Assembly (NCBI RefSeq): GCF_000744185.1
Contig: NZ_JQLL01000001.1
Coordinates: forward strand, 1,951,001-2,015,000
Length of the DNA: 64,000 nt
From: Carnobacterium funditum DSM 5970
GTDB lineage: Bacteria; Bacillota; Bacilli; Lactobacillales; Carnobacteriaceae
Direction of reading: 5' to 3'
The position numbers and the translations under genes are program-made. Shown one piece after another: positions 16,078-64,000 of this stretch. Under the pieces are notes generated by a model, which was given only the letters and a program-made list of their open reading frames with translations, searched no databases and had not been told where the DNA came from. Position 1 is the stretch's first letter; each line of letters begins with the position of its first letter.

Positions 16078-17369
16078 TGACGATAGTGCAACAATTCTTT
16101 AAAGTAAAAGAAAGTGGCAGTACTCTACAAACGGAAGTAGAAGCTAGTATTACTTCCTTTGTTTCTATTGTTTATATAGTAGCAGTGAATGCTTTAATCT
16201 TATCTCAAACAGGGATGAATTATAATGCGGTTATGATTGCAACCATCTTGACAACGGCTTTTAGTAATATATTAATGGGATTGTATGCTAAATCCCCATT
16301 AATATTAGCTCCAGGAATGAGCGACAATGCATTCTTTACTTATATCTTAGTAGGAGCTTTTGCCTTTACTTGGCAAGAAAGTTTATCGATTGTTTTTATT
16401 GTTGGGATGATTTTTTTCCTATTGACGTATTTTAAAGTAACTGGTCTGCTTTTACGTGCAATACCAGCGACGATGATTAAAGGTATGAGTGCTGGGGTTG
16501 GTTTCTTCTTGATCTTCCTAGGTTTGAAAAACAGTGAGATAATTGTTTCTTCGCCAGATACGATTGTAGCGTTAAACAATATTTTTCAACCGATTCCTTT
16601 AACGATGTTGCTTACTTTATTAATGGGATTATTCTTATTTGTTAAAAACGTAAGAGGAAACTTTTTACTAACGATTATATTTGGAGTAATTGTTTCTATC
16701 TTTTTAGGTGTCACAGATATCAGTTCATTTTCTTATTCGTTGATTGATACTCAATCGCTCGAACCGTTTATTTTGCAGTTTGATTTCTCTAGTGTTCTGT
16801 CTATTAATTACTGGATTGCAGTCTTTTCGTTGTTGATTCTAGTAGTCTTTCAAAATTTAGGGACACAAATTAGTTTCTTGAATTCTGAAGATCCAGCTGT
16901 TTTGAAGAAAACATTGGAAGCAAATGGCTTATCTGTCGTTATGGCAAGTGTTTTGGGCTGTAGTTCTACCTGTACAAGTGCAGAAGGCGCAACGGGAATA
17001 GCTGTGGGAGCAAAGACAGGATTAACCTCATTTTTAGTTGGGATTTATTTCCTTTTCACTATTTTTTTGATTCCTTTCATTGCTCTTATTCCATTAGCTG
17101 TTATCTCTGCTTTACTTGTAATCGTAGGCTCACTGTTAGTAGCAGGTAATTTAAAAGATATTGATTTTATGGATTTCACAGAATACTTTCCAGCTATCTT
17201 GATGGTTTTAATGATGGTTTTAACGTTTAATATAGCTGATGGAATTGGATGGGGATTTTCCTTCTATACATTCCTTAAAATAAGTACTGGAAAATATAAA
17301 TCCGTCTCTAAAATGATGTATGTTTTGACAGGAGTATTCATTTTGTATTTTGTATTAAAGTTTATTTAA
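16077..17369 (+). CDS. NCS2 (AzgA-type) purine base permease
   Basis: A 430-residue proton-coupled permease with 12 or more membrane segments. The N-terminal TEVEASITSFVSIVYIVAVNA and the APGMSDNAFFTY loop mark the AzgA/PbuG branch of NCS2, which carries guanine, hypoxanthine or adenine. The start ATG overlaps the nupC stop by one base (TAATG), so it belongs to the nucleoside operon. It may import free bases or export those released by DeoD. Which purine it prefers cannot be told. A strong terminator follows. Confidence 0.92.
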   Translation: MTIVQQFFKVKESGSTLQTEVEASITSFVSIVYIVAVNALILSQTGMNYNAVMIATILTTAFSNILMGLYAKSPLILAPGMSDNAFFTYILVGAFAFTWQESLSIVFIVGMIFFLLTYFKVTGLLLRAIPATMIKGMSAGVGFFLIFLGLKNSEIIVSSPDTIVALNNIFQPIPLTMLLTLLMGLFLFVKNVRGNFLLTIIFGVIVSIFLGVTDISSFSYSLIDTQSLEPFILQFDFSSVLSINYWIAVFSLLILVVFQNLGTQISFLNSEDPAVLKKTLEANGLSVVMASVLGCSSTCTSAEGATGIAVGAKTGLTSFLVGIYFLFTIFLIPFIALIPLAVISALLVIVGSLLVAGNLKDIDFMDFTEYFPAILMVLMMVLTFNIADGIGWGFSFYTFLKISTGKYKSVSKMMYVLTGVFILYFVLKFI

Positions 17370-17379
17370 ATGATTAAAA

Positions 17380-17451
17380 GGTTTGAACAACGTCACATAC
17401 TACCCTCCAAGCTTAGAGCGGAGGAGCGTGATACTGTTCAACCCTTTTTTT
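17380..17451 (+). terminator. Terminator of the deoB-nup-permease operon
   Basis: GGTTTGAACA and TGTTCAACC pair at the base and CCTCC with GGAGG at the top of a long stem. T7 follows at 17445-17451. Confidence 0.8.
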
Positions 17452-17456
17452 CTACA

Positions 17457-17657
17457 TTAATTTAAAAAATATACATAATAAGCACCTTGGAAAAGTAAAA
17501 TCAAATCGCCAAAAATCCCGATACAAAAAAACAGGAAATAGTAGGTTGATTTAGATATTTCTTTATTAAACAATTCCTTGAAAGCTTGGATAACAAGTTG
17601 TTCGAATTTAAATAAACTTAGAATCCAGCCAATAAGAACAAAAGCAACAATAGCCAT
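17457..17657 (-). CDS. Small two-helix membrane protein, unknown function
   Basis: A 66-residue protein with two hydrophobic segments (MAIVAFVLIGWILSLF and YFLFFCIGIFGDLILLFQGA) separated by a charged loop. The ribosome site GGGGG lies 9 bases before the ATG on the minus strand. No family is recognised. It is convergent with the nucleoside operon and lies just after the sulfurtransferase on the same strand, 33 bases apart, so they may share an mRNA. Confidence 0.65.
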   Translation of the reverse strand: MAIVAFVLIGWILSLFKFEQLVIQAFKELFNKEISKSTYYFLFFCIGIFGDLILLFQGAYYVYFLN

Positions 17658-17690
17658 AGTGTTTAACCCCCTTTTAAATTGTTTTTAAAA

Positions 17691-18524
17691 TTAGTTTTTT
17701 GTTTCTACTTTATTATCTGCGTAACTAACCCAATCGCTATAACCGCCTAAGTAAAGTTTGGGATTTAAACCGACTTCTTTCATGAAAAGAATATTTACTG
17801 TGCCAGTTATGCCGGATCCACAATGAACAATCACTTCTTTATAATTTTGAAGGGGTTCAAACCTTTCTTCCAGTTCTTTTTTATTCATTAACTGTCCATT
17901 ATTAACTAAGTCTGTCCAAGGATAATTAAGCGCATTTGGAATGTGCCCTGGTCTAGTATCTAAAGGTTCCACTTGACCAGCGTATCGTTCATAAGCTCTC
18001 GAATCGATTATCGCCGTATCAGTTGATCGAACAGCTCTCTTTACTTCATGAACATCAACAAGTAGAGCAGTCTTTATATTTAGACTTAGAGAATTAGATG
18101 TCACAGGTTCTTTTAAAACGTTCGTTACTTCTAATTTGTTCTCAAGCCACTTTTTCATGCCGCCTTCTAATAGATAGACGTTATCTTTACCAGCGTACTT
18201 TAATAGCCACCATAATCTTCCCGCCATTGCTAAATTCCCGTCGTCATAAATAACAACCATAGAAGAATCATTCATCCCCACTTTTTTCATAGCTGTAATG
18301 AAATTTTCCATATTTGGCAAAGGATGTCGGCCACCATGCGTCCTAATTTTTCCAGTCAGGGTGTCTTCCATAGAAACAAATTGAGCACTTTTGATATGAC
18401 TTGTTTTATATTGGTTCCATCCCGCAGATGAATCCATTAATTCTGCACGAGCATCTAGTACGACTAAGTTATTATCAGTGGATATTTTCGTTGCTAACTC
18501 CGTTTGCGTTATAAAATGGTTCAT
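17691..18524 (-). CDS. Sulfurtransferase with two rhodanese domains
   Basis: A 277-residue protein with an inactive N-terminal rhodanese domain (residues about 5-130) and an active C-terminal one. The active-site loop is CGSGIT near residue 237. That six-residue loop is typical of 3-mercaptopyruvate sulfurtransferases, whereas thiosulfate enzymes usually have CRKGVT. Other marks are the DAR/DSR pair (LDARAELMDSSAGW, IIDSRAYERYAG) and RPGHIPNALNYPW. It probably moves sulfane sulfur to cyanide or thiols in the cytosol. The ribosome site GGGGG is just before the ATG. Confidence 0.92.
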   Translation of the reverse strand: MNHFITQTELATKISTDNNLVVLDARAELMDSSAGWNQYKTSHIKSAQFVSMEDTLTGKIRTHGGRHPLPNMENFITAMKKVGMNDSSMVVIYDDGNLAMAGRLWWLLKYAGKDNVYLLEGGMKKWLENKLEVTNVLKEPVTSNSLSLNIKTALLVDVHEVKRAVRSTDTAIIDSRAYERYAGQVEPLDTRPGHIPNALNYPWTDLVNNGQLMNKKELEERFEPLQNYKEVIVHCGSGITGTVNILFMKEVGLNPKLYLGGYSDWVSYADNKVETKN

Positions 18525-18576
18525 ATGTCCCCCTAAGTCAATAATCTACTAGAATGATACAGTCAATAGCGTATTT

Positions 18577-18981
18577 TTACGTTTTTTTAACAAAGCTTTC
18601 TTTACAATGTGGGCAAGTAATTTTTATCGATCCTTTTTTTCGAGGAACTCGTAATTTCTTTTTACAATTAGGGCAAGCATAGTATTTGTACTGTTTGCGC
18701 TGATAAAATTTATTGCGCAACTGATTAAATTTTTGTTTTCCACGGCGACTAAGGGCTAAATATTTTTGGTTCTCTATATAACGTTTTGTGCGGTTGCGAG
18801 ATAATGCACGAAAATAACTGATTATAATCGCTACCCATCCGACTAAACCACCGAATGGTAGGTTCAATAGATTAAATAAAAAAATGAAAGCTAGTCCTAC
18901 ATATAATAAAATAGTTGAAAGTTTGTCCATCCCGTATCTTCCGACCATAAATTTTTGAATTTTCAATCGAATAGTTTTCAT
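18577..18981 (-). CDS. Membrane protein with C-terminal zinc ribbon
   Basis: A 134-residue protein with a basic N-terminus and two adjoining membrane segments (residues about 20-55: LSTILLYVGLAFIFLFNLLNL, GGLVGWVAIIISYF). A basic linker follows, then a zinc ribbon with two Cys pairs (CPNCKKKLRVPRKKGS, CPHCKESF). The ribbon must be cytosolic. The function is not known; similar ribbons occur in nucleic-acid or membrane scaffold proteins. Ribosome site AGAGG. It is a monocistronic gene on the same strand as the sulfurtransferase, 52 bases upstream of it. Confidence 0.75.
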   Translation of the reverse strand: MKTIRLKIQKFMVGRYGMDKLSTILLYVGLAFIFLFNLLNLPFGGLVGWVAIIISYFRALSRNRTKRYIENQKYLALSRRGKQKFNQLRNKFYQRKQYKYYACPNCKKKLRVPRKKGSIKITCPHCKESFVKKT

Positions 18982-19103
18982 TTTATTTTTCGCCTCTTTC
19001 TCTTTCTATGTCTTTGTATTCTCGGTAATTAGTATACCATTTCCAAATAAATTTTCTACCGGCTTTAGTCTGATTTTTAATGAATTCGTACAAATCAAGC
19101 AAG

Positions 19104-19132
19104 TTGTCGCAATAGAAGGGACATGTTATGAT
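19104..19132 (+). promoter_or_regulatory. Promoter of the formaldehyde detoxification operon
   Basis: TTGTCG at 19104-19109 and TATGAT at 19127-19132 are 17 bases apart, about 90 bases before the start of the dehydrogenase gene. Confidence 0.6.
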
Positions 19133-19187
19133 TTATCTATAAGGTGCTTTTTTAACAGAAGGGTTAAATACGAAACAGATTAAATGA

Positions 19188-20333
<1,146 letters not shown>

Positions 20334-20369
20334 CTCGTTTTAATGAAGTAATTTGGGGAGGAACAAATA

Positions 20370-21218
20370 ATGCAGGAATTAGAACGACTTGAAGAACACG
20401 TTAGTTTTGATGGAGTACAATACAAATACCGTCATGACTCAACTACTCTAGGCTGTCCAATGACCTTTAGTTTATTTTTACCGGACAAAGAAAAATTTCC
20501 TGACCCACCTTTATTTTGGTGGTTATCAGGCTTAACGTGTACAGATGATAATTTCACACATAAAGCGGGTGCGCAAAAAGCAGCTGCAAGATTAGGTGTC
20601 GCCATGATTATGCCAGATACAAGCCCACGAGGGAAAGATATCTCCGATTCAAAAGATTATGATTTAGGACAAGGGGCAGGTTTTTATCTTAATGCCACCC
20701 AACAACCTTGGGCAAAAAACTATAAAATGTACGATTATATTACTGAAGAATTATCAGTCATTGCTCATAAACAGTTTAAGTTGACTGGAAAAGAGTTTAT
20801 CTCAGGACATTCAATGGGAGGACATGGTGCGTTGGTTATTGGGTTGCGCAATCCTGAGCGATTCCAAGCGATATCAGCTTTTGCCCCAATTGTAAATCCA
20901 AGTCAAGTTCCGTGGGGCATAAAGGCTTTTGAAGAATATTTAGGTGACGATAAAAAAGATTGGCTTGAATGGGATGCGTTAGAATTAATGAAAAACTACA
21001 ATGGCAAAAAAGTTCCAATTCTAATTGATCAAGGAAATGCCGACCCATTTTATGAAAAACAACTGCAACCATCTAAAATAGGTGCAGTCGCAAATGAGAA
21101 AGATTACCCGTTGACGCTTCGAATGCAAAAAGGGCATGACCATAGTTACTATACGATAGCGACCTTTATCGGAGAACATTTGGAATTCCATTTATCTCAT
21201 TTGGCTAATACTCACTAG
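20370..21218 (+). CDS. frmB: S-formylglutathione hydrolase
   Basis: A 282-residue alpha/beta hydrolase of the esterase D family that releases formate and glutathione from S-formylglutathione. Seen: WWLSGLTCTDDNFTHKAGAQ near residue 50 with the oxyanion-hole region, the nucleophile elbow GHSMGGHGA near residue 148, the acid DQGNADPF and the catalytic His in KGHDHSYY. Ribosome site GGGGAGGA. Together with frmA it completes formaldehyde oxidation to formate. Formate could then feed the formate-tetrahydrofolate ligase at 29976, but that link is speculative. Confidence 0.95.
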   Translation: MQELERLEEHVSFDGVQYKYRHDSTTLGCPMTFSLFLPDKEKFPDPPLFWWLSGLTCTDDNFTHKAGAQKAAARLGVAMIMPDTSPRGKDISDSKDYDLGQGAGFYLNATQQPWAKNYKMYDYITEELSVIAHKQFKLTGKEFISGHSMGGHGALVIGLRNPERFQAISAFAPIVNPSQVPWGIKAFEEYLGDDKKDWLEWDALELMKNYNGKKVPILIDQGNADPFYEKQLQPSKIGAVANEKDYPLTLRMQKGHDHSYYTIATFIGEHLEFHLSHLANTH

Positions 21219-21234
21219 TGTGAGCTATATCTGA

Positions 21235-21281
21235 AAAACAGTCAATAATACCGTTTCGTTGGTGTTGCTGACTGTTTTTTT
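21235..21281 (+). terminator. Terminator of the frmAB operon
   Basis: AAACAGTCA and TGACTGTTT enclose AATACC/GGTGTT, and seven T follow. Confidence 0.85.
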
Positions 21282-21747
21282 ATTGCAATTATTTTGAAAA
21301 CAAGAATAAAAGTTGAATCTGTACATCATACCTGGAAAATGTATAGATTTTCTCAAAGATTACTACCTGTCTATTGTGATGCTACTTTTTATTATTTGGT
21401 GAATAATTTCAGTAGCTTATTAGAATAGATAAGTCGGGAATTTTTTTTTGAAACGTATCCATTTTAGTGAATAAGATCCCCACGTCTATCAATTTGGAGT
21501 CATCATAGGTTGCTCCAACCCGCCATATGTCGAATAGAGTTTTTGTTCGTATGCTGCTTTGAATTTTTTTGAAAAATAACGATTATCATACCTAAAAGAA
21601 CCAGAAAAGTGGTAATATAGTAACTTGTAAGAACTGTATAGGTTGGACGTAACTGAGCAATTATTATACGGTCTCTAGAACTAAAACGAGTAGCAACTAA
21701 AAAGGAAAGGGTTATAAAGAAAATAAAGTAAGGGAGATTGATAAGTA
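21282..21747. other. Intergenic region with second copy of the diverged repeat
   Basis: No gene seen. The block ATTATTTGGTGAAT at 21389-21402, with its flanks to about 21480, matches 8438-8580 in several pieces. The last bases carry the ribosome site (AGGGAG) of topB. Confidence 0.45.
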
Positions 21748-36237: not shown

Positions 36238-37344
36238 ATGTTGTCAATTTATGAAGGCTTTTTTCTAAATCTTTGTGTGTTGATTGCTTCTCTATTCATT
36301 TACAAACAATTATTCAAAAAAATGACTAAAGAATACCAAACCAACTGTTCATCAATCATTACTGGGATACTAGGTGGTCTGTTAGGTGCTATTTTGATGC
36401 ATTTTAGTATCGTAAGTGGGACAAATTCAATCATTGATCTTCGAATTATTCCATTGATGTTAGTTGTTCTTTACGCGAATGGGTTGTCAGTATCTATAAC
36501 AGCTCTTCTGATTATCTTAACTAGGTTCATGGTAGGCATTAGCTTGCATTCATTCTTAAATATACTTTTTATCATTACATCATGGGCGCTTTTCTCTATT
36601 TGTTTTCAAAAAATTAAAAATCGTTGGGTCTCCATAGTGGTTATGTTGGCTTTGAGCAATGTAGTTTATACAATACTCATTATTTTGTTTCCAACTAATA
36701 AGTATCTTAACCTGCCTTTAATGATAAACTACTGGATTATTTGTATAGCGGGTGGGGTTGTTGCTGTTTACATCATGGATTATTTAACAGAAAGTGAGTT
36801 TCTATTTAAACAACATAAAAATTTTGCTTTTACAGATCCATTAACGGGTCTAAACAATGTTCGCAGTTTTGATCTAGCCTTTAATAAAGCAAAAAAAAGA
36901 CAAATAGAAACTAATGAAACTATTTCTATTATACTCCTAGATATTGATCGCTTTAAACAAGTCAATGATACTTATGGACACACAGAAGGCGATGTTGTAT
37001 TAAAAAAGTTAGCAGCTATTTTAAAAATGAATCAAGGTTCGTATGATGTTGTTTCTAGAAATGGAGGAGAAGAGTTTTCGATTTTGCTTCATGACTATAG
37101 CCTTAAAGAAGTACATGAGCGAGCGGAGTCATTAAGAAAAATAGTCGAAAATTCATTTTTTGTTATAAAAAATAAAACATTAGCAATCCATATAACGATT
37201 TCAGTAGGGATTACAACATACAGTGATACTACAAAAGAAATTGATCAACTGTATGATAATGCTGATCAGGCATTATATGCAGCGAAAAAAAGTGGCAGAA
37301 ATAAGGTTTGTTTCTATACACAGGTTCCTTCAGTCTCACATTAA
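36238..37344 (+). CDS. Membrane diguanylate cyclase (5TMR_LYT + GGDEF)
   Basis: A 368-residue protein. Residues about 1-180 contain five to six membrane helices of the 5TMR-LYT sensor type. Residues about 200-365 form a GGDEF domain with DPLTGLNNVRSFD, the metal-binding LLDIDRFKQVNDTYGH and the active-site signature NGGEEF. The allosteric I-site RxxD five residues before GGEEF is absent (GSYD there). It should make c-di-GMP from two GTP. I choose the ATG at 36238 because AGGAGA ends only one base before the ATG at 36232 but 7 before this one. No phosphodiesterase or PilZ gene lies in the window. Confidence 0.9.
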   Translation: MLSIYEGFFLNLCVLIASLFIYKQLFKKMTKEYQTNCSSIITGILGGLLGAILMHFSIVSGTNSIIDLRIIPLMLVVLYANGLSVSITALLIILTRFMVGISLHSFLNILFIITSWALFSICFQKIKNRWVSIVVMLALSNVVYTILIILFPTNKYLNLPLMINYWIICIAGGVVAVYIMDYLTESEFLFKQHKNFAFTDPLTGLNNVRSFDLAFNKAKKRQIETNETISIILLDIDRFKQVNDTYGHTEGDVVLKKLAAILKMNQGSYDVVSRNGGEEFSILLHDYSLKEVHERAESLRKIVENSFFVIKNKTLAIHITISVGITTYSDTTKEIDQLYDNADQALYAAKKSGRNKVCFYTQVPSVSH

Positions 37345-53398: not shown

Positions 53399-55039
53399 AT
53401 GAATAAACATAAAAAAAAGAGTGCAATCATAGCAGCTTTATTCGTTGCGGTTATAAGTGGATGTGCAACAAATACGAACGAAGAGAAGACTGAAAGTCCT
53501 AAAGAAGAAAAACAAGTGTTACAAATAGCTGCAGAGTCAGAAATGGATACAATGGACACTACGATTTCAACGACTAATTTTACACCAATGAATAATGTCT
53601 TTGAAGGGCTAGTTGCATATGATCTATCGGGGGAAATAGTCCCAGCGGATGCAAAAGATATGCCGGAAATTTCGGAAGATGGATTAACCTATACATTTAA
53701 TATTCGTGAAGATGCTAACTGGTCGAACGACACACCGGTTACAGCAGCTGACTATCTATTTGCTTGGCAAAGAATGGTTGATCCTGCTAATGGCTCTGGA
53801 TATGCTTATTTATTTTCAGGAATCGTAAAGAATGCAGAGGCTATATTGAATGGCGAGAAGGAAGTTAATGAGTTAGGTGTTGAAGTGGTAGGGGATAAAT
53901 CATTTAAAGTTACTTTGGAACAACCGGTACCTTATTTTCTTGATATGTTAACAATTCCTCCTTATTTTCCACAAAGTGAAGCTTTTGTGACAGAACAAAG
54001 CGAAAATTATGGATTAAATGCCGAAACAACGATTTATAATGGGCCATTTGTCTTGTCTGATTGGACCGCAGCTAAAGGTGATTCTTGGAAATACGTTAAA
54101 AATGATGCGTATTGGGATAAAGACTCCGTCAAGCTTGATGAAATCAATACACAAATTGTAAAAGAGGTTGGAACGGGTATTAATTTATATGATTCAGGAC
54201 AATTAGACACTTTTTCTTTATCTGGAAACTTTGTTTCTCAATACAAAAATAATGATGATTTTAAAACAAATAATAAAGCTTGGATTTACTATTTGGAACT
54301 AAACCAAGAAGTACCGGAACTAGCAAATAAAAATATAAGAAAAGCATTAATGTTGTCTATCAACCGCCAAACGTTTACGGAAAATGTCTTGCAAGATGGA
54401 TCTGAACCTATATATGGTCATGTTCCTAAGGGGTTAGCTAAAAATCCGGAAACAGGCATAGATTTTCGTGAAGAAGCTGGAGATATAGCCAGTTTTGATG
54501 TTGAAGAAGCACAAAAAGCTTGGGCAGTAGGTTTAAAAGAGCTAGGTGAAACGAAGATAACACTAGAATTAACAACTTCTGACAGTGAAGACAGTAAGAA
54601 ATTAGCAGAATTCATTCAAAGCGAGTACCAAAAGAATCTGCCAGGTATAACCGTTAATATCCGTCAAATGCCTGATAACTCTAGACTGGACAATGTGAAA
54701 AAAGGCAATTATCAAATGGCTACCACATATTGGCTAGCAGATTTCGCCGATCCTATTAATTTTATTGAACGTTTTGATACAGCAATCAATCGAGGAAACT
54801 ATTCGTTTGAAGATGTTGATCAATTGATTGAAGAAAGCAACCAACAGTTCAATGACTTGTCAGCAAGATGGGAAACAATGATTCAAGCTGAGAAGATTGC
54901 TCTGGGAGAACATTATGTAGATATCCCTATTTACCAAACAGCTGAACCGTACCTTGAAAAACCGTATGTAAAAGATATTTACCGTCCCGTTTTCGGTAGT
55001 AAAAGTTATAAATATACGTATATAGATAGTTCACAATAA
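53399..55039 (+). CDS. Oligopeptide ABC transporter substrate-binding lipoprotein (OppA-like)
   Basis: A 546-residue SBP_bac_5 family lipoprotein. The lipobox is VISGC (Cys about residue 21). The body shows EMDTMDTTISTTNFTPMNNVFEGLV, LTYTFNIREDANWSNDTPVTAADYLFAWQR (the family signature) and ANKNIRKALMLSINRQTF. It binds peptides for import or for pheromone sensing. No opp permease or ATPase genes adjoin, so it must serve a transporter encoded elsewhere. Ribosome site AGAGGGG; a large terminator follows. Confidence 0.95.
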   Translation: MNKHKKKSAIIAALFVAVISGCATNTNEEKTESPKEEKQVLQIAAESEMDTMDTTISTTNFTPMNNVFEGLVAYDLSGEIVPADAKDMPEISEDGLTYTFNIREDANWSNDTPVTAADYLFAWQRMVDPANGSGYAYLFSGIVKNAEAILNGEKEVNELGVEVVGDKSFKVTLEQPVPYFLDMLTIPPYFPQSEAFVTEQSENYGLNAETTIYNGPFVLSDWTAAKGDSWKYVKNDAYWDKDSVKLDEINTQIVKEVGTGINLYDSGQLDTFSLSGNFVSQYKNNDDFKTNNKAWIYYLELNQEVPELANKNIRKALMLSINRQTFTENVLQDGSEPIYGHVPKGLAKNPETGIDFREEAGDIASFDVEEAQKAWAVGLKELGETKITLELTTSDSEDSKKLAEFIQSEYQKNLPGITVNIRQMPDNSRLDNVKKGNYQMATTYWLADFADPINFIERFDTAINRGNYSFEDVDQLIEESNQQFNDLSARWETMIQAEKIALGEHYVDIPIYQTAEPYLEKPYVKDIYRPVFGSKSYKYTYIDSSQ

Positions 55040-59487: not shown

Positions 59488-60261
59488 ATGGAAATGTCAA
59501 AAGGAACAACTTACTTATCATTATTTATCAGTTTATTACTAGCAGATTTTTTTATGCTATTCCGTTTCGCGACATCGGAGTATTTTTTTATTTATTTCTT
59601 TATTATCTTTGTAACAGCTTTATTAATGAACGTTTTATCAACATCTAAAAATTTTATCTTGGTTTTAACGATTATATTAGTCCTAGGATTTACATTAGTT
59701 TTCTTATCTGGCACAACCTTGATTTCTCAAGCTATTTTAATAAGAGAATACCTATTAATAATGGGTGCATTACTCTTGATGTGGTTACTTTTTACAGAAG
59801 TAAGGAAAAACGATAAAGAACTAAAAGAATTTAAAATAAAAGCAAAAGAATTAGAAAAATATGTCGGCTCATCTAATTTATTGACCATTTCAGAGTTTGA
59901 AAATCGCGTCAAATTTATTTCTACGGGTACACAAAGACGCAATGAAGAAAATTATTATGTGGTTTTTAAACCAAAAGAGGTTAATAATGCAACTGAGTCA
60001 CTTTCATTTTTGTTAAAAAAAACACTCTTAAAAACTGTTCGCTCAGATTTTGATTTAGTAACGAAATTAACTGATGGCTCTTATCTTATTTTTTTACAAA
60101 ATACAAAAGAAAAAGGCTGTTTAAAGGTCATAGAACGTTTATTTCAAACATTGAGAACGGAGCTGAACACGATTCAACTACCACTTAATTATGAAGTATT
60201 TGATCAAGAAAAAGGGTTAGCGTATTTTGAAAAAAATAAAGTTGAGGGATTGAAGAAATGA
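59488..60261 (+). CDS. Membrane protein with degenerate GGDEF-like domain
   Basis: A 257-residue protein. Residues 1-105 hold four hydrophobic segments, followed by a short coiled stretch (KNDKELKEFKIKAKELEKY). Residues about 130-250 have the size and pattern of a GGDEF fold (LLTISEFENRVKF, NYYVVFKPKEV, LVTKLTDGSYLIFLQNT), with LTDGSY standing where GGDEF would be, so it cannot be an active cyclase. Such proteins sit beside BcsA-type glycosyltransferases in Firmicute exopolysaccharide clusters and may bind or scaffold. It overlaps the next gene by 4 bases. Ribosome site AAAGGAGG. Confidence 0.72.
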   Translation: MEMSKGTTYLSLFISLLLADFFMLFRFATSEYFFIYFFIIFVTALLMNVLSTSKNFILVLTIILVLGFTLVFLSGTTLISQAILIREYLLIMGALLLMWLLFTEVRKNDKELKEFKIKAKELEKYVGSSNLLTISEFENRVKFISTGTQRRNEENYYVVFKPKEVNNATESLSFLLKKTLLKTVRSDFDLVTKLTDGSYLIFLQNTKEKGCLKVIERLFQTLRTELNTIQLPLNYEVFDQEKGLAYFEKNKVEGLKK

Positions 60262-60956
60262 GAATATTAATGATGGTAATCATCCTTTTTTTCTGGTTGA
60301 TGTTGATTTTTTATTCAATTTTGACACTGGCTGGGGTTATTCAGAGGCTAACGAGGAGCAAAAAAATAACATTAGACCATTACCCATCTGTCGCTGTTTT
60401 TATACCGGCTCACAATGAAGGAATTGTTATTAGTGACACATTGAATGCAATGGTAAAAATTGACTATCCTGGAGAACTAACGATTTATGTGTTAGATGAT
60501 AACTCAAAAGATGATACTGCTGAAATTACACGAGAGTTCAGTTACTTATTTTCTAAAATTTGTTATGTAAAAGTGCCACCTGGCGAGCCCACTGGAAAAT
60601 CACGCGTTTTAAATTATGGATTGTCTATTACTAAATCTGCTTATTTTCTTGTATACGATGCTGACAATCAACCAAATAGTGATGCAGTTATAGAATTGGT
60701 TCATGCAGCGGAGACGACTGAAAATGCAGCAGGAGCAGTAGGATATGTGCGAACGGTAAATGCCAATCAAAACTTATTAACACGTATGATTGCCATTGAA
60801 TTTCAAGTTTTTCAATTACTAATGCAAAGTGGCAGATGGAAACTGTTCAGAGCAGGCTCATTAGCGGGAACAAATATGTTGTTAAAAAGAACTATTATTG
60901 AAGAAGCTGGTGGGTATGATCCCTATCAGTCAACAAGATTTTTTCAAAGAAAATAG
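60258..60956 (+). pseudogene. BcsA/IcaA-like family 2 glycosyltransferase, truncated
   Basis: The 232 codons begin with a membrane helix (MVIILFFWLMLIFYSILTLAGV), then a GT2 domain: VAVFIPAHNEG, YVLDDNSKDDT, LVYDADNQPN (DxD-type metal site) and SLAGTNMLLKRTIIEEAGGYDPY. Full-length relatives have about 400 or more residues, with the TED/QxxRW part and more helices. Here the match stops after GGYDPY at about base 60925 and ten unrelated residues precede a TAG. The lost half coincides with the start of an RpiR fragment, so this is a deletion end. It was probably a c-di-GMP-linked polysaccharide synthase. Confidence 0.85.
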
Positions 60957-61422
60957 TAAAGAGGATATTGAACAATTTATTCAAAAAGTTTTGTACATGA
61001 AACAAAAATACCTTTTTATTTATGCAACGGGATTTTCTGCAATAGCGGCCGAGTATCTATATAAGAAGCTATTAGTTTTAGGTAAAAAAACGATTATCGC
61101 AACTGGAACAGATTCGATTGGTGTGTTTGAAAATAACTTGGAAGACATTGGAGCGCTTATCGTAATTTCAAAGTCAGGAGAAACGCAACTTGTAATCGAT
61201 AAATTACTTGTAGCGAAAGAACAAAATATATTTACCGTTACTTTTACAAAAGAAACGACAAATAGAGCAGCAACAGTATCTGATTTGAATTTTAAAATTG
61301 TTGATAACAATAAATTGGATGATCGAAATATGTTGCCGAATAGTTTCTTTCCTAGGTTATTGATGTTAATAGAGTATATGTTTAAAATGTACCTCGATGA
61401 GATGCAACAAGAAATTGAATAG
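60925..61422 (+). pseudogene. RpiR/MurR-family regulator, C-terminal SIS half only
   Basis: The frame from about 60925 encodes a linker (QQDFFKENSKEDIEQFIQKV) and a SIS domain (YLFIYATGFSAIAAEYLYKK, LIVISKSGETQLVIDKLLVA, FPRLLMLIEYMFKMY), as in sugar-phosphate-sensing RpiR proteins. The 75-residue N-terminal HTH is missing. The reading frame opens upstream only through glycosyltransferase DNA read in another frame. It lies directly before the alpha-glucoside PTS genes, where such a regulator is normal, so it was their regulator and is now disabled. Confidence 0.82.
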
Positions 61423-61429
61423 TAAACCG

Positions 61430-61462
61430 AAACGTGTTTCAAAACGATGAAACACGTTTTTT
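61430..61462 (+). terminator. Terminator after the RpiR fragment
   Basis: AAACGTGTTTCA and TGAAACACGTTT form a 12-bp stem with a six-base loop, then TTTTT. Confidence 0.9.
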
Positions 61463-61483: not shown

Positions 61484-61497
61484 TTAAATCGCTTTCA
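61484..61497 (+). promoter_or_regulatory. cre-like site before the alpha-glucoside PTS gene
   Basis: TTAAATCGCTTTCA (minus strand TGAAAGCGATTTAA) fits the cre consensus at 13 of 14 positions. It lies 55 bases before the PTS start, between the terminator and the gene, so CcpA repression is likely. Confidence 0.6.
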
Positions 61498-61551
61498 AGA
61501 TATGCTAGGTTTATCAAAAGAAATGAAACAATAAAAGTTGGAGGTAAAGAT

Positions 61552-63159
61552 ATGAAAGATAGGTTAATGGATGGGATGCAGCGTTTTTCCAAAGCAATGT
61601 TTATACCAGTATTGATTTTACCAATTGCAGGTATTCTAATTGCACTCGGTAATTTGTTTACAAATGCAAAACTAATTGAAACCGTTCCCTTTTTAGATAA
61701 CCCTATTACAATGGGATTTGGATCTATTTTATCCGGATCATTGGTTTCAATCTTAAGTAATCTGGGGTTAATATTTTGTATGGGCTTAGCAGTCGGCTTA
61801 GCGAATAAGAAAAAATCAGAAGCAGGATTTACAGCAGTATTAGGCTACTTAGTTTTTGTTAACGCTATGAATAAATTTATGGAACTTAGCGGAGTATTGT
61901 TTGTAGGTGAATCACTGCAAGGTACCGGACAAACGATGGTTCTAGGTGTACAAATACTTGATATGGGTGTTTTTCTTGGTATTATATTAGGAATTGTAAC
62001 GGCATTAGTACACAACAAATTCTCTGATAAAGAATTTAATAATGCTTTTCAAATATATGGGGGTACACGATTTTCATTCATTATGTTAATTCCAGTAGTT
62101 GTTTTACTGGCTATTGCCTTTACTTATATTTGGCCATTTTTCCAAAATGGTATTAACAGTTTAGGAACACTAATAAATCAAAGTGGAAATTTTGGGATTT
62201 TCTTATATGGCTCATTAGAGCGTTTATTGATTCCAACTGGACTACATCACTTAGTCTATACGCCTTTCTTGTATACATCTCTAGGAGGAATTCAAGAAGT
62301 TGGAGGACAAATTTTTGAAGGAGCAAGAAATATTTATTTTGCAGAAATTGCAGATCCTTCTGTTAAAATCTTATCTTCAAGTGTTATCTGGGATGCACGT
62401 GGCATATCTAAAATGTTTGGATTAATTGGCGCATGTCTGGCTATGTATCATACAGCTAGCCCTGAAAATAAAGGGAAAGCAAGAGCAATATTAATTCCAG
62501 CAGTAGTTACTTCATTTGTAGCTGGTGTAACCGAGCCAATCGAATTTTCATTCATGTTTGTCGCACCGCTATTATTTGCGGTACATGCGGTATTAAGTGG
62601 GCTGAGCATGGTTGTATTAAATGTACTGAATGTAAGAGCCATTGGACCAAATGGTTTTATCGATTTCTTATTGTACAATGTACCGTTAGGAATTGAAAAA
62701 ACAGGATGGCCAATGTATGTTCTAGTAGGATTAGTATTCTTTGCTATTTATTACTTCACATTCCGATTCTTGATTACCAAATTTAAGTTTAAAACCATTG
62801 GACGTGAAGAGACAGGAAAAGAAACAAAATTATACTCTAAGAATGAATACAATGAAAGTAAAAGTAAAAAAGCAACCTCTAATGAAGCTCAACCTCAGGG
62901 AGGTACTGGGTTAGCCAGCACAATTGTTGCGGCACTAGGTGGACCAGACAATATCAATACAGTAACCAATTGTTATACGCGTTTAAGATTAACATTAGAT
63001 CAGCCAGATAAAATAGATGAGCTGGTATTAAAAAATGATACAGGAGCAAGTGGAGTCATTATTAAAGATCACAATGTACAAGTCGTTTATGGGTTACAAG
63101 TAGAAAGTGTCAGAAAAGCTGTTGATCAGTTTTTAGGAAGAGAAGCAGAAGAAGAATAA
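61552..63159 (+). CDS. PTS alpha-glucoside transporter, fused EIICB
   Basis: A 535-residue permease of the glucose/maltose superfamily of the phosphotransferase system. Residues about 1-420 form the EIIC domain (FSKAMFIPVLILPIAGILIALGN near the start, GLHHLVYTPF, VTEPIEFSFMFVAP). The C-terminal 80 residues form EIIB with the phosphorylated Cys in TNCYTRLRLTL. There is no EIIA domain, so a separate EIIA-Glc must serve it. The neighbouring GH4 gene suggests maltose or another alpha-glucoside as substrate. The ATG at 61552 follows GGAGG; an upstream in-frame ATG at 61447 is unlikely because it lies in the terminator. Confidence 0.93.
   Translation: MKDRLMDGMQRFSKAMFIPVLILPIAGILIALGNLFTNAKLIETVPFLDNPITMGFGSILSGSLVSILSNLGLIFCMGLAVGLANKKKSEAGFTAVLGYLVFVNAMNKFMELSGVLFVGESLQGTGQTMVLGVQILDMGVFLGIILGIVTALVHNKFSDKEFNNAFQIYGGTRFSFIMLIPVVVLLAIAFTYIWPFFQNGINSLGTLINQSGNFGIFLYGSLERLLIPTGLHHLVYTPFLYTSLGGIQEVGGQIFEGARNIYFAEIADPSVKILSSSVIWDARGISKMFGLIGACLAMYHTASPENKGKARAILIPAVVTSFVAGVTEPIEFSFMFVAPLLFAVHAVLSGLSMVVLNVLNVRAIGPNGFIDFLLYNVPLGIEKTGWPMYVLVGLVFFAIYYFTFRFLITKFKFKTIGREETGKETKLYSKNEYNESKSKKATSNEAQPQGGTGLASTIVAALGGPDNINTVTNCYTRLRLTLDQPDKIDELVLKNDTGASGVIIKDHNVQVVYGLQVESVRKAVDQFLGREAEEE

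Positions 63160-63187: not shown

Positions 63188-64000
<813 letters not shown>

Follow-up and report, generated by a model that had tools for sequence, protein, structure and literature searches.

A PTS block, probably derived in large part from a neighbouring genus, joined to a truncated glycosyltransferase gene in Carnobacterium funditum

Introduction

In Carnobacterium funditum DSM 5970, the 5' part of a family 2 glycosyltransferase (GT2) gene is followed immediately by the 3' part of a gene for an RpiR-type regulator. How did half of a polysaccharide gene come to be joined to half of a sugar regulator gene, and what would the join mean for the two loci? The original prediction was that one deletion had joined an exopolysaccharide cluster to a maltose-type PTS locus. 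We have compared the junction and its surroundings with related genomes. The window is the whole stretch of DNA analysed, 64,000 nucleotides of contig NZ_JQLL01000001.1, and positions are numbered from its first base, including those that lie beyond its end, except where they are given as C1 or for another genome. Most comparisons involve G001 to G004, which belong to the same genus, and G006, G011, G013, G015, and G017, which belong to a neighbouring genus, g3.

Results

The match switches from GT2 to rpiR at positions 60924–60926 (+ strand) in a base-by-base comparison with five GT and six rpiR homologues; these three bases (TAT) are all that the two sides share. The sequence from 60258 to 60926 aligns without gaps with the GT genes of G002, G003, G006, G008, and G012, and the sequence from 60924 onward aligns without gaps with the rpiR genes of G011, G013, G015, G017, and G006; the BLAST match to the rpiR gene of G003 begins at 60931. 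Beyond the junction, the GT frame is closed by nine foreign codons and a stop (60927–60956, + strand; ORF list and alignment), resulting in an ORF of 232 residues made up of 223 native codons and nine foreign residues. The RpiR SIS fragment is open in a different frame, and no fusion protein is therefore encoded. Chance is excluded by the best non-self E-values, which are 2.1e-122 for the GT part and 5.6e-97 for the RpiR part. Thus, the junction between GT2 and rpiR sequence is real. The original prediction had followed the GT family match as far as GGYDPY near 60925, with the linker and SIS domain of an RpiR regulator straight after it in another frame, and the breakpoint in the base-by-base table and the start of the rpiR match bear out both statements.

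The GT remnant (60258–60926, + strand) comprises the first 223 codons of about 410 and retains a GT2 domain, PF00535 and PF13641 both scoring over cut-off (74.1 and 65.1 bits). Close copies were found in five other genomes among the 59 searched, own genome included (74–79% identity over residues 1–224), and the frame is open over 411–419 residues in each of the five, in agreement with the predicted loss of the C-terminus. In the G002 homologue, GGYDPY is followed directly by ED and QRTRW stretches, which line up with the bacterial cellulose synthase motifs TEDAE and QRGRW. ED and Q(R/Q)xRW are motifs of processive GT2 enzymes; the remnant ends before both, and both are absent. With this acceptor and catalytic half gone, the polysaccharide synthase would be dead, and polysaccharide synthesis via this operon should be abolished. 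As judged from the alignment with cellulose synthase, the enzyme is BcsA-like only in a distant sense. The intact G002 homologue scores below the NCBIfam cut-offs (TIGR03937, 103 versus 422 bits; TIGR03030, 75 versus 699 bits) and does not qualify on these scores as a PgaC/IcaA or CelA/BcsA equivalog.

The GT remnant is preceded by a gene for a membrane protein of 257 residues (59488–60261, + strand; 60–65% amino acid identity to G002, G003, and G006) that occupies the same position before the GT gene in these three genomes. Its frame is open, and its product has no Pfam match at an E-value of 0.001. In a comparison of 21 rows, some of them paralogues, this protein was 59% identical to its G006 counterpart, as against 72% for the G002 copy. 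The deficit of 12.3 points is the second largest, exceeded by that of one unrelated gene (15.3 points), and for the GT remnant the deficit is just 4.0 points. The membrane-protein gene may be decaying.

The G002 operon contains, in order, the genes for the membrane protein, the GT2, a protein of 342 residues with no Pfam match over cut-off, an EAL protein, and a GGDEF protein. The genes further behind the GT gene presumably encode a rhodanese, a CoA-disulfide reductase, and an ABC pair. From their order and type, we take the operon genes to be related to ydaJKLMN and the 257-residue membrane protein to be YdaK-like. The two operons share a membrane-protein gene before the GT2 gene. EAL and GGDEF genes come next in the G002 operon, which is likened by order and type, but no counterparts of YdaL or YdaN were seen in it. 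In Bacillus subtilis, ydaJKLMN is an exopolysaccharide operon (PMC13274460).

A DNA-level query with the 7,731 bases that G002 has after codon 223 did not locate the missing GT half in the own genome (14 of 102 candidates scored); it gave two short weak matches (66–67%), both outside the GT part. Two other GGDEF genes are retained, one of them at 36826–37305. The nearest genomes of the genus, G001 and G004, yielded no close GT copy, yet they contain sequence like that of the G002 stretch from EAL/GGDEF to ABC. Thus, the locus varies within the genus.

The rpiR remnant (60925–61422, + strand) encodes the linker and the SIS domain (PF01380, 35.4 bits, over cut-off), with possible starts at ATG 60916 or TTG 60898. 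It matches residues 88–254 of the 255-residue G011 protein, in which HTH_6 lies at residues 10–66 (PF01418, 44.6 bits). The remnant thus begins at about codon 88, and the N-terminal HTH_6, which had been predicted to be missing, was absent from it in the Pfam search. Among non-self RpiR matches, 13 reach 55% identity, and all of them have an open frame of 251–279 residues, against 178 here. Comparison with relatives, as proposed in the original prediction, finds both genes whole. Neither the missing 5' half of rpiR nor a second copy of the PTS was found elsewhere in the own genome, in which the RpiR query gave matches from residue 88 only and three paralogues at 23–24%. Lacking the HTH, the regulator beside the PTS genes cannot bind DNA on its own. 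Relaxed selection on the remnant was considered and rejected: in the own branch, with synonymous sites near saturation, pN was 0.020–0.031 for the SIS fragment, 0.023–0.028 for EIIBC, and 0.017–0.021 for GH4, that is, no excess of amino acid change. We regard it as very doubtful that a SIS-only protein is still made from ATG 60916 and acts as a free sugar-phosphate sensor modulating another RpiR protein.

The remnant is followed by genes for a PTS EIIBC of the glucose/maltose type (61555–63159, + strand; PF02378 and PF00367 over cut-off), a GH4 glycosidase (63194–64519, + strand, running beyond the window end at 64000; PF02056, PF11975), and, outside the window, an FGGY-family kinase (65036–66562; PF00370, PF02782). 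The best NCBIfam match of EIIBC is TIGR02004 (MalX), at 380 bits for a cut-off of 632. An EIIBC of the Glc family adjoining a GH4 gene fits the layout of a maltose-type PTS (MalX/GlvC) with a 6-phospho-alpha-glucosidase, and the predicted PTS/GH4 locus is present beside the junction.

The intergenic region before EIIBC is retained and conserved. It includes, behind rpiR, an inverted repeat, GAAACGTGTTTC...GAAACACGTTTTTT (61429–61462, + strand), identified in an alignment of seven genomes. The arms are identical in the seven and the loop is variable, which is beyond what a plain terminator needs. Of 12 genomes harboring the module, all except G042 have the pattern behind rpiR (11 genomes), and it is absent from all four genomes examined that lack the module; in all 16, it occurs 21 times, versus 9 for the backward control. 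The predicted hairpin has a folding energy of –16.3 kcal/mol (z –4.8), and the terminator scan did not call it, finding no terminator-like site. The repeat could serve as a terminator, as an operator, or in both roles. The promoter scan found 1 site versus 3.8 expected in shuffled sequences. A stretch near 61487–61500 may be cre-like; the original prediction was that the PTS genes would probably be left under CcpA alone.

Members of the same rpiR-EIIBC-GH4-kinase locus are present in G006, G011, G013, G015, and G017, in the same gene order and with 80–86% nucleotide identity to the own sequence over rpiR(3')-EIIBC-GH4. In these genomes rpiR is whole, and the locus lies beside rplY in G006 and G011, whereas the own block is located inside a polysaccharide locus. 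Against G011, the segment 60924–64580 is 85.6% identical at the nucleotide level, as compared to 68.5–75.4% for seven other blocks. Protein identity to G011 is 92% for the RpiR remnant, 91% for EIIBC, 94% for GH4, and 75% for the kinase, against 56–74% for five other genes after removal of three rows at 33–36% as paralogues. The values for G006 are 84, 89, 85, and 75%, respectively; two other genes reach 88–89%, so the comparison with G006 alone would not convince. The kinase, 75% identical to both G006 and G011, is no closer to g3 than other genes, so parts of the block may differ in origin. The own sequence groups in the EIIBC tree with the five g3 sequences (support of 97/99 with an outgroup and 98/99 without), and G003 lies outside. 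Forcing own and G003 EIIBC into a clade gave a p-AU of 0.029, a modest value for a clade named after inspection of the tree. GC content gave no foreign signal (0.357 versus 0.343 and 0.36). TrpS was unusable as a species marker, since a close homologue (E-value of 1e-60) was present in 28 of the 59 genomes, none of them of g3. Among GH4 sequences, pN places G013 with the own sequence and G011 (0.028 and 0.024), G015, G017, and G006 being at 0.085–0.098; two GH4 types would exist in otherwise similar operons, although the best match was taken per genome and a paralogue is possible.

The joined arrangement is found in the own genome only, among five genomes of the genus. G003 has both parts, located apart and with a whole rpiR; only the GT part is present in G002; and for the two parts G001 and G004 give nothing beyond short weak matches. 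Given the similarity to g3 and the EIIBC tree, the rpiR-EIIBC-GH4 part at a minimum is best explained by horizontal acquisition, probably from genus g3, which includes Carnobacterium jeotgali.

Homology of the block with g3 stops at about 66581. Further right, 66863–70938 is collinear with positions 17309–21428 of G002 (74%), starting with an aldolase-like gene, and at the position of the PTS block G002 has 7.7 kb of other genes. The right flank thus returns to the surroundings of the polysaccharide locus, so the PTS block is best read as a local replacement: as judged from this collinearity, the block (about 60924–66581, ~5.7 kb) lies inside the old polysaccharide locus. The sequence right of the block also follows, with breaks and exceptions, the G006 DNA located between its GT and PTS loci (27–96 kb in reversed coordinates). 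A gene for 546 residues on the other side (53399–55039) has its G006 counterpart on the opposite strand and across the GT operon, a local rearrangement.

Bases 66582–66806 are unplaced. About 186 of them have a copy (73%) at C1:1529150–1529334 that looks non-coding, sits between two other genes, and is interrupted by stops in the frames read. We considered an insertion sequence at the right edge and rejected it, since the 60-residue minus-strand ORF had no Pfam or NCBIfam match. Searches of the plasmid collection with the right-edge stretch, at protein and DNA level, were negative, and its one Rfam hit was at chance level (E-value of 0.77). We identified neither a transposase or integrase nor a direct repeat at the block edges, and no mobile-element gene was found at 59–68 kb in the ORF lists and in profile searches on part of the ORFs.

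Discussion

We consider it likely that a PTS piece of about 5.7 kb, derived from g3, replaces the 3' half of the membrane-protein/GT2 operon and the genes behind it. The originally predicted deletion, joining two old resident loci, accounts for the breakpoint and for both truncations. It also fits the three shared bases, as expected from an end-joining deletion, and the arrangement in G006, in which GT precedes rpiR on the same strand at a distance of 110 kb. It leaves the right side unexplained. The DNA right of the block is unlike the sequence behind the PTS in either G006 or G011 and returns instead to the sequence just behind the G002 polysaccharide locus, on which ground we rejected this form of the proposal. 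Moreover, rplY, the neighbour of the PTS in G006 and G011, is located 63 kb further in the own genome (C1:2075139) with no PTS beside it, and the PTS proteins show greater similarity to another genus. One deletion between resident loci is thus unlikely, and a deletion that followed an earlier insertion of the PTS is a possible source of the left join.

Translocation of a native PTS operon into the polysaccharide operon would be in keeping with G003, a member of the same genus that carries the module elsewhere with a whole rpiR. Since the own genome has neither a second PTS copy nor a left-over 5' half of rpiR, and since the block is closer to g3 than to G003, with the EIIBC tree pointing the same way, we find such a move quite unlikely. 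Resemblance to another genus is also what contamination or a chimeric assembly, put forward in the original prediction as the main alternative, would produce. A chimera could still be imagined, but it would require both edges of the block to be wrong, and the join lies inside a contig of 2,329,297 bases of a genome that is 100% complete and 0.11% contaminated. The region 60600–61300 matches the own genome only once, and within the 144 kb examined there is no recurrence of any 12-, 15-, or 18-mer that spans the join. An assembly or contamination artefact is therefore highly improbable.

In the replacement that we favour, the PTS piece (rpiR 3' part, EIIBC, GH4, and FGGY kinase) would have come from g3, and the left join would have formed by end-joining without homology. 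One replacement step, or insertion of the PTS nearby followed by a deletion, are equal candidates for the route. One established route is homology-facilitated illegitimate recombination. The three shared bases were discarded as proof of a microhomology mechanism, since we estimate that an overlap of this length would occur in about 5% of random joins.

The PTS genes retain the region before EIIBC, whereas the DNA-binding half of the adjacent regulator is lost. GlaR of Lactococcus lactis, which belongs to the same RpiR family as the truncated gene, is described as an activator (PMC6528599). Since RpiR regulators can be activators, the loss of the HTH may, by analogy, have led to lost induction of the PTS rather than to its free expression.

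What the locus shows is a recombination scar of an ordinary kind, together with a PTS operon probably gained by horizontal transfer; it reveals no new biological system and leaves general understanding unchanged. The reading by deletion alone is corrected, and the annotation benefits, as both remnants would otherwise carry the labels of working genes. For C. funditum, the locus offers a well-bounded case in which a horizontally gained sugar operon, lying inside another operon, would have ended a polysaccharide trait while the newcomer was left without its adjacent regulator.
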